Source: Faecalicatena contorta
Lineage (GTDB): Bacteria > Bacillota > Clostridia > Lachnospirales > Lachnospiraceae
Assembly (NCBI RefSeq): GCF_021531975.1
Contig: NZ_JAFBIY010000002.1
Coordinates: 278,061-342,060, forward strand
Length of the DNA stretch: 64,000 bases
Direction: 5' to 3'
Shown: positions 53,475 through 64,000 of the stretch, in pieces
How the letters are laid out: the number at the start of each line of letters is the position of its first letter
Numbering within the stretch: position 1 is the stretch's first letter
Notes under the pieces: generated by a model
Databases searched by the model: none
Told to the model about the DNA's origin: nothing
The model's input: only the letters and a program-made list of their open reading frames with translations
Made by a program: the position numbers and the translations under genes

Positions 53475-53765
53475 TTATTTATACTTTTGATAAGTTTGAA
53501 TGATTTCCTCAAAGAAATCAACAGGGTTTTCTTCTAAAGCAGTTGCAAGAACGATGAGTTTTTCAATACTAATCCAATTTTTCCCGAGCTCAAGATTAGC
53601 AAGGTGGCGAGGTGAAATCCATGGTTCTCCGCCAAAGAGTTCTTCACTTCTTCGATCTATAAAACTTTCGCGTGATTTATATGCATATCCTAAAGCCTTT
53701 CTTTTTTTGGTAATCAATTCCCCCATTTTTACTAGTCCGGGATCATATTTCTGTCGCTCTGCCAT
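53475..53765 (-). CDS. XRE-type helix-turn-helix regulator of the defence cassette
   Basis: 96 residues. An HTH region with ELITKKRKALGYAYKSRESFIDRRSEEL and ISPRHLANLELGKNWISIEKLIVLATAL, the Cro/CI-like fold with a longer-than-usual loop. Divergent from the AIPR gene. A 16-bp perfect palindrome lies 20 bases upstream of its start and touches the -35 of the opposite promoter, so it is most likely an autorepressor and repressor of the cassette. Start after AGAGGTG. Confidence 0.85.
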   Translation of the reverse strand: MAERQKYDPGLVKMGELITKKRKALGYAYKSRESFIDRRSEELFGGEPWISPRHLANLELGKNWISIEKLIVLATALEENPVDFFEEIIQTYQKYK

Positions 53766-53785
53766 TTTATCACCTCTTTATAAAT

Positions 53786-53801
53786 ATGCACCATGGTGCA
53801 T
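53786..53801. promoter_or_regulatory. Operator palindrome for the XRE regulator
   Basis: ATGCACCATGGTGCAT is a perfect 16-bp inverted repeat. It sits between the two divergent genes and shares one base with the -35 box of the cassette promoter. Confidence 0.7.
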
Positions 53802-53829
53802 TGATATATTTTACCATAAGGAATATACT
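53801..53829 (+). promoter_or_regulatory. Promoter of the AIPR-GHKL-nuclease cassette
   Basis: TTGATA (53801-53806), 17 bases, TATACT (53824-53829), 70 bases before the AIPR start. The adjacent operator predicts repression. Confidence 0.75.
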
Positions 53830-53900
53830 TAGATCAAGATCTGAAATTTAGTTCAAGGCAAAAGCTTTCGAGCAGAAAATTAAAATGGAGGTATCAGATT

Positions 53901-55097
53901 ATGAACACACAGTTGAAATTTAAAGTAAACGCATTGAGAACACTTGCTTCCCCTTATAAAAGGAGTGAAAAAGAAGAAGCAACATTTGAAACAATTTATT
54001 ACTTGTTGGTTAATATGAAGGATCTGCCAGAGAACGTTCCTTTAGATGTTAATCCTCGAGTACCTAAAATGGGAACAAATGTTGCGAAGAGACTTATCAA
54101 CGCTGTAGTTGAGCCAGAAACAGATTTTTATATTAATAATCGAGGTATTGTTATTTCTGCAAAATCATTAAGTTTTAATAGTGCAGATTCAGAGGTGACA
54201 ATTGATATTGGTAATCAGGATGATGAGAATGACAGATATAATTATGGCATTCTTGATGGTGGTCATACTTATACAGCAATAATGCAGAATAGAGATAGAA
54301 TTCCAGAAGATATTGAAAAATATGTTCGTATGGAAGTTATCACTAATGTTATTAATATTACAAGATTATCAGATGCGAGAAACACATCTGTTCAAGTTTC
54401 AGATATAGCATTGTTTAACCTCGAAGATAGTTTTGAGGATATTAGAAATGCTATTAAAAATGAATCTTATGCTGACAAGATTGCATATAAAGATAACGAA
54501 AATAAGCCGATTAATATATCAGAATTACTTCGTTTAATGTATGCATTTGATGTAGTTAAATATCCTGATGATAGCATGGCTCCAATTCAGAGTTATTCAG
54601 GTAAAGCGCAGGTGTTTAAAAGATACAAGGATGTATTTGATACTCCTTTTTATAAATCATTAACAAAACAGTTGCCGGTTCTTGTGAGTTTATATGATTT
54701 AATCGAAAGAGAGTTGTCTTTGAAATATAATGAGTACAAGAAAAAACTTGGAGTTGCTATTCCGAGATTTGGAAGCGTAAAAGGTGTTGAAAATATTGAG
54801 AAGGGAACAAAAACAAATTTCCTTCAGAAGAAAACCACATATTCTATATCTAGCGGTTATATTTATCCTATATTTGGTGCATTTCGTTCGTTGTTAAGAT
54901 TTGATGAAGAAACAGGTGAGGTTTCTTGGCTGTTTGATCCTTTGGAAATATGGGAAGAGGTTGGAACAAGTATTGCACAGAATACGTTTGAAAGCAGTAA
55001 CAATCCTCAGCTTGCAGGAAAAGATAAGCAGCTATGGTTGTCAAATTACAGAATTGTTGAAACTCAGAGTTTGAGAAAACTCCTTAACAAACGATAA
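53901..55097 (+). CDS. AIPR-like protein (abortive infection phage resistance family)
   Basis: 398 residues. The AIPR signature is visible as FYINNRGIVISAKSL (NNRG at 79-82) and, after about 35 residues, YGILDGGHTYTAI (DGGHT at 119-123), the counterparts of the family's NNGI and NGGQT motifs. Helical C-terminal half. AIPR proteins occur in abortive-infection and restriction-like loci; their biochemistry is poorly defined. First gene of a plus-strand operon with a GHKL ATPase and a putative nuclease. AT-rich compared with the chromosome on either side. Confidence 0.8.
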   Translation: MNTQLKFKVNALRTLASPYKRSEKEEATFETIYYLLVNMKDLPENVPLDVNPRVPKMGTNVAKRLINAVVEPETDFYINNRGIVISAKSLSFNSADSEVTIDIGNQDDENDRYNYGILDGGHTYTAIMQNRDRIPEDIEKYVRMEVITNVINITRLSDARNTSVQVSDIALFNLEDSFEDIRNAIKNESYADKIAYKDNENKPINISELLRLMYAFDVVKYPDDSMAPIQSYSGKAQVFKRYKDVFDTPFYKSLTKQLPVLVSLYDLIERELSLKYNEYKKKLGVAIPRFGSVKGVENIEKGTKTNFLQKKTTYSISSGYIYPIFGAFRSLLRFDEETGEVSWLFDPLEIWEEVGTSIAQNTFESSNNPQLAGKDKQLWLSNYRIVETQSLRKLLNKR

Positions 55098-55141
55098 TAG
55101 ACTGTTGGAGGATCGATTGTATGAGAATAATAAAATTACTA

Positions 55142-55348
55142 ATGCATCAAAATTATACATAGCGTCTCGCACGATTTTCTTCCCATTATGTTTTGGGTGG
55201 TAATCAGACTGGTGCGAGAATTGGAATTCATTCGGCATTTGGAGGTGGAGATTCCTTACCACAGGTGTCAGGTGATGAGGAAGGCCGTTGAACTGAATGC
55301 GATAATTACATTGAATCAACAATAGAAAAATATAGAAAGGGACAGTAA
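55142..55348 (+). pseudogene. Interrupted small reading frame between the AIPR and GHKL genes
   Basis: A single frame from 55142 is broken by TAG at 55160 and TGA at 55289 and ends with TAA at 55346, two bases before the GHKL ATG. The middle reads HYVLGGNQTGARIGIHSAFG, then DSLPQVSGDEEGR; the end reads NYIESTIEKYRKGQ. The tight spacing to the next start is what an operon gene would have, so a cassette gene seems to have decayed here. Not recognised. Confidence 0.45.
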
Positions 55349-55349
55349 G

Positions 55350-57551
55350 ATGATTAGTTGGAATTTCCCAGGCAACCAGGATGGACAGGTAAAAGGCGTT
55401 GCTGATGCAGGTATTGAAAATTTTAATGGAACTGAGCTTTCATCTTTGGCACGAGAAAATTGCCAAAACTCTTTGGATGCTGCATTGGATGATAGTAATC
55501 CAGATGTTCAAGTTGAATTTGAAAGATATTTTGTGTCTACAAATCAGATTCCGGGTATTGTGGAATATCGAAATATCTTGAAAAAATGCAAGACTTTTTG
55601 GGATAGATCGAAGAGTGAAAAAGCTAAACTTTTTTTGAAGGATGCAATTAAAGAGGCAGAAAAGGAGAATACTTTTGTGCTCAGAATCAGTGATTACAAT
55701 ACAACGGGACTTTCAGATCCGTATGCACAATCAGATGATCCTTTTAATTTTAGCTTCGATGGATGGAATGCATTGATAAAAATTGATGGTGGTGCGAACA
55801 AAGGCGATGACAAAGCAGGTGCATTTGGAATTGGTAAAAGTGCTCCATTTAGTAATTCGCATTATAGATTGGTGTTTTACAGAACATACAATCAGAAATA
55901 TGAGCGTGCAGCACAGGGCATTTCAAGATTAATGTCATATCAAGATGGTGCATTAATGACTAGTGGTATTGGTTATTACGGAGAAACAAAAGGAAATAAT
56001 CCAGTAGAGGTAATACCGGAACTTGATAGCATAAATAGAAGATCCGAAGTTGGGACGGATGTCTTTATTTATGGATTTAAGTCAGCAAGCGAGTGGGAAA
56101 CAGAAATTACTGTAGCATTATTGGAAAGTTTTCTTATGTCATTTTTTAATGGGCAGCTTCGGGTAAAGGTACAGGGAAGAGAAATCAATAAAAAATCATT
56201 ACCAGGATATATGGAACGCGTTCATAGAGAACGACCGGGTGCGACCAAAGGAACTTATGGTAATTATCTTGCATTGACGCGAACAAAGGGAGTTCATACA
56301 TATTCACAGGATTTTCATGGTATGGGTACATTAGAATTGAGATTGTTGGTCGACCCGAATGAAAAACTGGACAGAAAAGTTTTGATTGTGAGGAAAGCCG
56401 GAATGAAATTATTCCGGCTTGGAAATATATCCAAGTTGGTTCCCTTTACAGGAATTCTTGAATTAAAGGGAAAAGATTTGAACAGTTATTTCCGTGCTAT
56501 GGAAACAGTTGCTCATGATAATTGGGAACCTGGAAGGCATTCAAATCCGAAGCAGGCAAAAGCATATTATGAGGAAATTAAGGACTGGATTAGAACCATT
56601 GTGGCAGAACTTGCTGAACACACAAGCGATGACGAAATGGATGTCGAGGGTTTAGGCGGTGTTCTTCAAAAAGAGCCGGAGGCAGTGGAAACTGGAGATT
56701 CAGATGATAAACGAGAAAATATTAATGATCATCTAGGAAATATTGATGTATTGGAGCGTCCAACTAAGACTCCATCAAAAGGATTCTTTTATGGAAAAGG
56801 GGATGAAGGCAGCAGTCAATCTACAACCACAAGTGGAACACTTGGAAAGACAGGCGAAGCCGGACTTAGAATTCTGAAAGGAAAAAGAAAGCGAAAAAAA
56901 TTAGATAAACATCGGGGAATTCCAGATCCGAGTGGAAAAGATGTTGTTGTTCAGAAGAAACCGGGTGGAGAAACTAGTTGTCCTCTTAAAAATGTGCGCA
57001 TTATAAAGAAGGGTACAGGGATATATTCACTTAATTTTGAAATACCACATGATGTGGAGTATGGAAGAATTGAACTGGTCACTGTAGGAGAAAATGGGAA
57101 GTCTAATAGGCTTCGTATAACAGATGTTAAGCCGACATCTGGATGTGAAACGGCAAAATTAAATGGAGGCTTTATAGAAACTGCGAATATGACATCTTCT
57201 GGGAAAGTGAAGATTATTGTAATCACTCGAATATTCTCTGATGCAGTAGATGCAATTATGCAAGGTGATGTTCCTACGTTAAATCTTGAAGGAAATATAT
57301 CTGCAGAAGAAGAGGATGTTGATTATTCTGATGATGAAAATACAGATGCTGTTGATACATCAGATATTCCTGAGGTAACATTAGGATGTAAGGTTGTAAT
57401 TCGCAATACAGATAAGGAAACTAAAACATATAAATATGACATGGTAAATGGAATGATGCCTAAAGCGGTTGAAGTGTTTACAGGATGTAAAGTTGGAGAT
57501 GTAATTGAAATGAAGGGAAAAGAATGGAGGATTGAGGATGTAATATTCTGA
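55350..57551 (+). CDS. GHKL (HATPase) family ATPase, MutL/MORC/Hsp90-like, of the defence cassette
   Basis: 733 residues. N-box ARENCQNSLDA (Glu36, Asn37, Asp43), G1 box RISDYNTTGLSD (Asp115...Gly120) and G2 box KAGAFGIGKSAPF (157-164) define a GHKL nucleotide-binding fold without a phospho-accepting histidine. A transducer-like region follows to about 430, then an acidic and Lys/Arg-rich linker, and beta-rich C-terminal modules (LNFEIPHDVEYGRIELV; CKVVIRNTDKETKTYKYD). By analogy with MutL and MORC it may dimerise on ATP and gate a nuclease; that role is inference. Confidence 0.8.
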   Translation: MISWNFPGNQDGQVKGVADAGIENFNGTELSSLARENCQNSLDAALDDSNPDVQVEFERYFVSTNQIPGIVEYRNILKKCKTFWDRSKSEKAKLFLKDAIKEAEKENTFVLRISDYNTTGLSDPYAQSDDPFNFSFDGWNALIKIDGGANKGDDKAGAFGIGKSAPFSNSHYRLVFYRTYNQKYERAAQGISRLMSYQDGALMTSGIGYYGETKGNNPVEVIPELDSINRRSEVGTDVFIYGFKSASEWETEITVALLESFLMSFFNGQLRVKVQGREINKKSLPGYMERVHRERPGATKGTYGNYLALTRTKGVHTYSQDFHGMGTLELRLLVDPNEKLDRKVLIVRKAGMKLFRLGNISKLVPFTGILELKGKDLNSYFRAMETVAHDNWEPGRHSNPKQAKAYYEEIKDWIRTIVAELAEHTSDDEMDVEGLGGVLQKEPEAVETGDSDDKRENINDHLGNIDVLERPTKTPSKGFFYGKGDEGSSQSTTTSGTLGKTGEAGLRILKGKRKRKKLDKHRGIPDPSGKDVVVQKKPGGETSCPLKNVRIIKKGTGIYSLNFEIPHDVEYGRIELVTVGENGKSNRLRITDVKPTSGCETAKLNGGFIETANMTSSGKVKIIVITRIFSDAVDAIMQGDVPTLNLEGNISAEEEDVDYSDDENTDAVDTSDIPEVTLGCKVVIRNTDKETKTYKYDMVNGMMPKAVEVFTGCKVGDVIEMKGKEWRIEDVIF

Positions 57552-57631
57552 ATCTAAAATGATTAAATTTTGTTGAGGAATAGAATACTGGCATACATCG
57601 GAAAATATTAAGAAATAGTGAAGGTACAATT

Positions 57632-58714
57632 ATGACAAAATCGGAAAAAATAACAGGTATGATTTCTGAAAGATACTTTCTCCCCCAATATATATATGCG
57701 GATGTTTATGCAAAAGAAAATAAGCAGGAAAAAGAATTCTGTGATTGTCTTATTGAATTTTCATCAGTTTATATTGTTATTCAAATTAAGGAACGAAATG
57801 ACAGTGCTGCAGGAAGTAATGAACAATGGTTCGAAAAGAAAGTTGTTAAAAAAGCAAAATCTCAGCTGAAAGATACTTTTTCTTATTATAAAAATTCAGC
57901 GAATCATATTTTTTCAAAGAGTTCAGACCTTGTGTTGGACAGAAATAAAGAATTGTTGCCAGTGATAGTGTTTTTGAATAATGACTTGACTGAATACAAA
58001 AGAACTATTTATTCGAAATCTCTTAATTTGGTGATTAATATCTTTAGTATTTCGGATTTTGAAGTGATGCTACAAACACTTAAGTTGCCATATGATATTA
58101 TTTCGTATCTAGTATATAGACTTGCATTTGAATCTACAGAAAATAAAAAACTTATTTTAGATAAGGTGAATGAAGATTTTGCAATCCTGTTATCACCTCG
58201 AACAGAACATGATTATTCATATATGTTTTTGGCAAGAAACTATTATAAACATATTTTGAGACATGAGCTAAATGAAGAAAACATTGCCTATTATAATGAA
58301 TTGATTTCACAGCTGAACATTTCGGCTGGATGTCAGCGAAGTAAATTTATCGAAGGATTACTTTGTGTAGATTATTATAGGGCAGATAAAATATCAAAGA
58401 ATTGGATTAAGTTACTGGATTTGGCTAAAAAAGATGAATTTGTTTTCCCGTATACGATTACTATAGAAGACAGAGTCTATATGTTTATGATAAGACCAAA
58501 TAGAATGTCAGAGGCGGAATTCAAGCAATATTTAGAATATTTACTAATTTATAGAAAGTACATAGATAAAGCAAACATTGCTCATCTTATTCTGATCAGC
58601 TATGCGCAACAGGAAAGATGGAGTATCGAAATAGGAGACGTTGATTTAAATAACTTGATTAGATACGATGAACTGGTTGATAAAGTTGTAGAGGCAATAG
58701 AATCAAAGAAATAG
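57632..58714 (+). CDS. Putative PD-(D/E)xK-type nuclease of the defence cassette
   Basis: 360 residues. Near the N-terminus EFCDCLIEFSSVYIVIQIKER gives Asp38 and, 13 residues on, Gln51-Ile-Lys53, the spacing of a PD-(D/E)xK core with a QxK variant. The first 180 residues look alpha/beta, with INIFSISDFEVMLQTL after it, and the rest is helical (NYYKHILRHELNEENIAYYNELI). No family name recognised. Third gene of the operon, 80 bases after the ATPase, and followed by strong terminators. The nuclease call rests on this motif only. Confidence 0.55.
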   Translation: MTKSEKITGMISERYFLPQYIYADVYAKENKQEKEFCDCLIEFSSVYIVIQIKERNDSAAGSNEQWFEKKVVKKAKSQLKDTFSYYKNSANHIFSKSSDLVLDRNKELLPVIVFLNNDLTEYKRTIYSKSLNLVINIFSISDFEVMLQTLKLPYDIISYLVYRLAFESTENKKLILDKVNEDFAILLSPRTEHDYSYMFLARNYYKHILRHELNEENIAYYNELISQLNISAGCQRSKFIEGLLCVDYYRADKISKNWIKLLDLAKKDEFVFPYTITIEDRVYMFMIRPNRMSEAEFKQYLEYLLIYRKYIDKANIAHLILISYAQQERWSIEIGDVDLNNLIRYDELVDKVVEAIESKK

Positions 58715-58980
58715 CGTTTGCTATTAGAAGAAACTATTATGGAACATGATCTAAAAGAGTGTGGAAAGTGTATTCAACAATTTCATAAAGAGCATGGTTT
58801 TGTAGGAACAGCTTGCTAAAAAATCAAATATCAGACTAAAGATAGTTGTAAAGAGTGAACGTTGACTGCGTAGATCATATGTGGATTTTCTTTTTTAAAT
58901 TTCAGAAATTTTGAGTGTTTCAAAGAATTATCTTATGTTTGGTGTTCATGCAGAAAAAGAGAATTAGAATAACCATTTTG

Positions 58981-59016
58981 AAACCACTGGAGTAGAAAAT
59001 ACTCTGGTGGTTTTTA
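58981..59016 (+). terminator. Terminator of the defence cassette
   Basis: AAACCACTGGAGTA pairs with TACTCTGGTGGTTT (two wobbles) around GAAAA, followed by TTTTTAT. Confidence 0.85.
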
Positions 59017-59732: not shown

Positions 59733-60635
59733 TTGGGGTGTTATCATTTTCATTTAACGCAGCTATCCAGAGGACATGGACAGTCAGCAATTGCAAGTGC
59801 GGCGTATCGTTCCGGTGAAAAACTTTACAGTAGTTATTATGGCGAAGTGAATGATTACACAAGAAAAGGTGGAGTGATTCTTTCAGAAATTCATTTGCCC
59901 GATCATGCTCCTGAAAGATTTAAAGACAGAGAAACTCTCTGGAATGAACTGGAGTGGGAAGAGTCAAATAAGAAAGCACAGCTGGCACACAGTTTTGATA
60001 TTGCTTTTATGAATGAATTTTCTATGGAAGAAAATATCGAACTGGCAAGAAGATTCGTCCGGGAACAGTTGGTTAGTCGAGGTATGATTGTAGATCTGGC
60101 GATTCATGATCCAAAGCGATTAGATGATAAAGAACCAAATCCTCACATGCATATCATGGTTCCAATCCGTCCTTTGAAGGAAGATGGTACATGGGATGTA
60201 AAGCAGAAAAAGATTCCGATTCTGAAAGAAGATGGGACACCGGTTTTAAATAAAAATGGCAAACCAAAAATGAAAGCTGTGCCGGTAAATGATTGGAGCA
60301 GTAAGGAAACTTTGACGGAGCTTCGAAAAGCATGGGCGAATCTGTGCAACGAGCTCTATGAAGAAAAAGGTTTGCCACAAAGAGTAGACTGGCGTTCTTA
60401 TGAGGAACTTGGTGTGAATCAGATTCCAACAGTTCACGAAGGACCATCGGTTCGAGCTATGGAAGCAAAAGGGATGGAAACTGCTCTTGGAAGCCTGAAT
60501 CGGATGATCCGTAAATTTAATCAGATGCTTCAAGATGCAAAAGAACTTTTGTGGAAAGCAATGTTTCAGGAAGGTCAGCTTCAGGAAAAAATGATGCTTA
60601 CAAAGAAACCTACCATTGCAGAGTATTTGATCTGA
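59733..60635 (+). pseudogene. MobA/MobL relaxase, truncated (TTG start)
   Basis: 300 residues remain of a protein normally well above 400. TTG start after GAGGAGG. Relaxase features: YHFHLTQLSRGHGQSAIASAAYRSG, then NPHMHIMVPIRPL (the HxH metal site) and TLTELRKAWANLCNELYEE. The family sequence runs to KKPTIAEYL (60629) and then stops abruptly at an inverted junction. The catalytic domain is present, but loss of the C-terminus probably ends mobilisation. Confidence 0.85.
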
Positions 60636-60862
60636 AATGCAGGTCTTACCACACCTCGAATGGTATGAATGGTGCTGTATTTCTTACCATTTTCCTGCAA
60701 CTCAATCAACCACAGCTTAGCATCAGAAATACGAATCTCATCAATAAATCTTTCTCCAAACGGATCCTTTTTCAAGGTATTTATCACTGTCTTATAACCG
60801 GCTCTGGTACTTTCACGCACACCCTGCTTTTGCTTGATGTAACGCTCTATTATGTTCTATTC
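60632..60862 (-). pseudogene. Tyrosine integrase fragment, core-binding (SAM-like) domain
   Basis: On the minus strand a frame reads ERYIKQKQGVRESTRAGYKT, NTLKKDPFGERFIDEI, SDAKLWLIELQENGKKYSTI and RGVVRPAFQ, the core DNA-binding domain of Tn916-type integrases. It begins after stops near 60865 and ends at 60632, where it meets the relaxase sequence head-on. The N-terminal arm domain and the catalytic domain are missing here. Confidence 0.8.
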
Positions 60863-63623: not shown

Positions 63624-63676
63624 ACATACCTTGAAAATCACATACAAGAAATCATCCATTACCTATCCACCTTGTC

Positions 63677-64000
<324 letters not shown>

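Follow-up and report, generated by a model that had tools for sequence, protein, structure and literature searches.

PDC-M33, a candidate system in PADLOC, consists of three genes (A, B and C), the first of which encodes a GHKL ATPase; our literature search found no paper naming PDC-M33 or DUF6339. XRE-AIPR two-gene modules (short AIPR, PF10592; for example on plasmid PML21 of Enterococcus faecalis) combine a divergent helix-turn-helix (HTH) gene with an AIPR protein of about 398 residues carrying conserved motifs, and they stand alone. According to PMC12137116 on VcSduA, a Shedu protein with a GHKL domain, a GHKL ATPase and a PD-(D/E)xK nuclease can be fused in one protein, there with a DUF4263 nuclease. 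We analyzed a 64,000-nucleotide stretch of Faecalicatena contorta ("the window" refers to this whole stretch) in which counterparts of several of these components lie in a row. The window shares the M33A ATPase with PDC-M33 but lacks M33B, keeps only a tail of M33C fused to A, and carries AIPR where the related loci L039 and L090 carry a 185-residue gene. Its XRE-AIPR pair is likewise divergent, but what follows it is an M33 system in damaged form and then a nuclease gene. As in VcSduA the GHKL ATPase and the nuclease are paired, whereas here they are separate genes with no DUF4263 match in Pfam. We consider it probable that the locus is a mosaic of three side-by-side modules (XRE-AIPR, a GHKL-M33C-tail fusion without M33B, and a predicted PD-(D/E)xK protein) rather than one machine. 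An earlier, sequence-only reading had proposed a single undescribed defence cassette; its observations are partly confirmed and its interpretation partly supported. The four reading frames it described are all present where it placed them.

Part of the evidence for a mosaic comes from the GHKL gene. L039 is a locus in a genome of the same family; its genes run in the order 185-residue gene, GHKL (642 residues), M33B (294 residues) and M33C (351 residues), with A, B and C all matched by PADLOC. In the window's 733-residue product, residues 1-625 match PDC-M33A and residues 625-731 match positions 241-345 of PDC-M33C. Protein identity to L039 is 83% for GHKL, and DNA identity is 77.5% for GHKL and 72% for the M33C end. 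The alignment covers window positions 55210-57214 and resumes at 57241-57551, with 26 bp where L039 has 1674 bp, so the GHKL end, all of M33B and about two thirds of M33C are missing. The fusion is most simply explained by deletion, and a single event of about 1.65 kb would probably have taken all three pieces. The DUF6339 core, which spans residues 67-247 of the L039 M33C, is likewise largely outside what the window keeps. Also absent is the C-terminal motif DYAMEVNVYE, which is kept by 26 of 29 GHKL relatives chosen from 120 listed of 800 proteins; seven of its ten columns are invariant in the alignment of these 29 (A3). The sequence-only reading identified a genuine GHKL protein with its three boxes intact, but one that has lost its own end and runs into an M33C tail.

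PDC-M33A matches occurred in 25 distinct genomes, and the 17 with full-length matches were opened as loci. Left out were the window's own locus, three broken by stop codons (G567, G663, G733) and another four whose matches were weak or partial (G142, G442, G558, G635), although G142 was opened later as an AIPR locus. M33B and M33C lie directly downstream of M33A in all 17 by profiles built from L039, leaving the window as the sole locus without them. Three of the 23 plasmid records with GHKL were opened, and two have the A-B-C order (L109, confirmed by PADLOC; L110, by annotation); the third, L111, ends after A. The Priestia plasmid pG5MAi6_1 is an example with an intact PDC-M33 locus. Outside the GHKL frame, where the tail lies, M33C has no match in the genome; M33B has none anywhere in it, in a search in which control genomes also gave no match. 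Only L037 and L039 among the 17 loci carry the M33C tail, which marks it as a variable extension of M33C. As M33A is stop-broken in three other genomes, decay of PDC-M33 is not unusual. The window's fusion probably does not work as an M33 system.

A second breakpoint lies upstream of the GHKL gene. The blastn alignments of L039 and of L090, a contig from a viral collection, both start at window position 55210, inside the 185-residue gene, and this shared start indicates that the window likely gained AIPR there. In both relatives the 185-residue gene is intact upstream of GHKL, and L090 has no AIPR upstream. Recombination at about 55,210 probably put XRE-AIPR in the place of that gene. L090 is 98% identical to window positions 55210-56855 (1646 bp) and ends at GHKL residue 509, so M33B and M33C are not visible in it. 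Over the first 502 GHKL codons the two differ at a nonsynonymous rate (dN) of 0.005 and a synonymous rate (dS) of 0.072, a pattern that points to purifying selection on this pair and is silent on the period after the deletion. The 185-residue gene has weak BrxB-like similarity (E 0.002) and otherwise no family. Genes of this type accompany PDC-M33 in some relatives; they lie upstream of A in L039 (4373-4930) and L090 (7385-7942) and downstream of C in L037 (2968-3471).

We weighed whether the genes could nevertheless form one new integrated system, in which AIPR would be the sensor, the GHKL clamp the gate and the PD-(D/E)xK protein the effector in place of M33B and M33C. The shared strand, the 80 bp between the GHKL and nuclease genes, the single terminator-like hairpin, the low dN/dS, the three intact GHKL boxes and a plasmid with AIPR upstream of an M33-like set (L104, below) are all consistent with such a system. 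However, AIPR, GHKL and the nuclease occur together in no second place in anything searched. In the 9.0-12.5 kb examined at each of the 17 M33A loci, neither AIPR nor the third protein appears (blastp; profiles at E <= 1), and the nuclease is absent from all 21 genomes and both plasmid records that carry M33A or short AIPR. Together with the missing seven invariant columns and the rearrangement indicated by the breakpoints at 55210 and 57214/57241, this makes an integrated system unlikely. The lack of other co-occurrence and the fusion to the tail of an otherwise missing gene suggest instead that the locus was probably pieced together on decayed mobile DNA. The single cassette of the sequence-only reading has no second example in the neighborhoods searched, and its GHKL gene is, over residues 1-625, the M33A of an already listed candidate system. 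No PF10593 match was found anywhere in the genome, in a search in which a control genome gave one. Our literature search found no paper combining AIPR, GHKL and "defence" (British spelling); PMC2292703 contains both AIPR and GHKL.

A defence island of chance gene order, in which all parts work and the fusion alone still acts as an ATP-driven DNA clamp, would fit the intact ATP-binding boxes and the mostly silent divergence from L090, but we judge it improbable given the retention of M33B and M33C in every genome locus examined and of the C-terminal motif in nearly all chosen relatives. That the fusion is an assembly error uniting two M33 copies or strains is very improbable. In its favor, the assembly is a 34-contig draft, and a search of viral contigs for the exact 23-base junction gave nothing. 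Against it, the fusion is in frame and lies within a contig of 342 kb, at about 6.4 kb from the end, and the genome yielded no further copy of M33A or M33C.

In the favored mosaic, each module would act separately. XRE is predicted to bind the palindrome by the AIPR promoter and hold AIPR low, and infection would relieve this repression. AIPR is tentatively predicted to be a nucleoside triphosphate switch of ParB/sulfiredoxin fold on DNA (DGGHT motif, DndB-like); once derepressed, it would stop phage or host replication in the manner of abortive infection. The predicted nuclease would attack DNA independently.

Table 1. Features of the XRE-AIPR, GHKL-M33C and nuclease locus, in window coordinates.
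Feature	Position	Strand	Remarks
XRE-type HTH repressor, 96 residues	53475..53765	-	divergent from AIPR; HTH_3 E 7.7e-4, under Pfam gathering cut-off
16-bp perfect palindrome ATGCACCATGGTGCAT, XRE/AIPR spacer	53786..53801		predicted XRE operator
Promoter-like TTGATA-17-TATACT adjoining palindrome	53801..53829	+	predicted AIPR promoter; 10/12 matches
Short AIPR protein, 398 residues	53901..55097	+	no AIPR_N match; DGGHT motif at 119-123
3' remnant of 185-residue gene and GHKL leader	55210..55349	+	left breakpoint 55210; blastn against L039, L090
GHKL ATPase (PDC-M33A) part of fusion gene, residues 1 to ~622	55350..57214	+	PDC-M33A E 2.3e-178
Deletion-fusion junction, 26 bp	57215..57240	+	gap between L039 alignments
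PDC-M33C tail, in frame with GHKL	57241..57551	+	M33C positions 241-345 of 346, E 9e-6
360-residue protein: predicted PD-(D/E)xK nuclease domain (~residues 1-163) and C-terminal part	57632..58714	+	predicted fold
Terminator-like hairpin	58980..59014	+	15 pairs, -20.3 kcal/mol, z -5.66; 0/200 shuffles as good

The AIPR identity given by the sequence-only reading is confirmed by a PF10592 match (E 5.3e-45; the Pfam scan took in eight proteins between 53475 and 62151), and homologues were taken from 120 listed of 945 AIPR proteins (alignment A2 held 43 of 120 plus the window's). AIPR relatives at 93% (P0170-P0173) come from metagenome contigs. Besides the window's own, AIPR occurs at 23 places, ten of which were covered by nine opened stretches, and seven of the 13 plasmid records with AIPR were opened. 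A divergent HTH gene lies beside AIPR in all three genome loci found by searching with the window's AIPR (L055, L056, L057) and in all seven plasmid records; no adjacent HTH gene was seen for the distant short AIPR of L100. The divergent HTH gene expected as repressor is present, with a family match below the cut-off. Five of the seven plasmids have XRE-AIPR with no downstream defence partner listed in their gene tables, which are incomplete; two of the five are near-identical modules. The full palindrome recurs in L056, and because L055 keeps 15 of its 16 bases, only the 14-bp core TGCACCATGGTGCA is common to the window, L055 and L056. L057, L100 and the seven plasmid loci lack it. When the bases of the 135-bp spacer were shuffled 5000 times, 26 of the shuffles reached an 8-bp arm. 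The proposed consensus promoter matches well, but sites of this type occur at chance level across the region. The proposed terminator is a hairpin well beyond its shuffles, but is not in the list from the consensus scan.

Several relatives of this module differ in their surroundings. In L057 (2684-6990), whose AIPR belongs to the same family (37% identical) and has a divergent HTH gene of its own, the adjoining genes by eye resemble a C5 methylase and a Vsr-type endonuclease, which would place AIPR among restriction genes. L104 (3660-8767), from E. faecalis plasmid pJF3A-4253-2, has a divergent HTH gene, AIPR, M33A-like and M33B-like genes and a gene weakly similar to DUF6339 (E 0.0095, below cut-off, no PADLOC hit); the set could represent a distant, AIPR-led branch of PDC-M33 that is not listed. 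The metagenome AIPR P0189 appears by eye to be the window's AIPR minus 30 internal residues, either a genuine variant or an artifact of assembly.

No family could be assigned with confidence to the 360-residue protein (NERD E 0.023, below cut-off; PDC-M29B E 2.6e-4), and it has no sequence match to any solved structure; its relatives in metagenome contigs include P0002-P0006. Its predicted structure falls within the restriction-endonuclease core fold, and D38, Q51 and K53 are invariant across the 37 rows of alignment A1 (36 of 49 sequences plus the window's). The same residues occur in all six diverged homologues aligned, as far as a Synechocystis plasmid protein. We thus predict a PD-(D/E)xK nuclease fold, in line with the putative QxK nuclease proposed earlier. 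The protein shares the predicted core fold and E-D-QxK residues with the PD-(D/E)xK nucleases N.BspD6I (nuclease domain), McrC, Card1/Can2 and NERD, but differs from them in its separate C-terminal part. Family contexts vary, including an XRE and a RES gene in L012 and Eco57I-type and C5 methylases with HNH in L013. In L012 (8482-11074) the order is XRE gene, RES-domain protein (PF08808), nuclease-family member, so that a toxin-antitoxin-like pair precedes a PD-(D/E)xK-type protein. L066 (6106-6984) encodes a 292-residue protein, a possible domain fusion, whose start resembles the nuclease domain and whose remainder looks by eye like an acetyltransferase-type domain.

The locus neighbors DUF3847, a MobQ relaxase, a primase/helicase-like ATPase gene and a 79-residue integrase remnant, and its G+C content is 0.30-0.38 against 0.43-0.46 on its left. 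The region adjoins mobile genes as the proposed mobile island would, but the element is decayed. The integrase remnant (60581-60820; phrog_1 E 3.3e-5) lies on the opposite strand and overlaps the 3' end of the relaxase gene (59733-60635), the arrangement of a scrambled mobilizable element. At 63676-64000 the window and the contig both end within 23S rRNA, a usual place for an assembly break.
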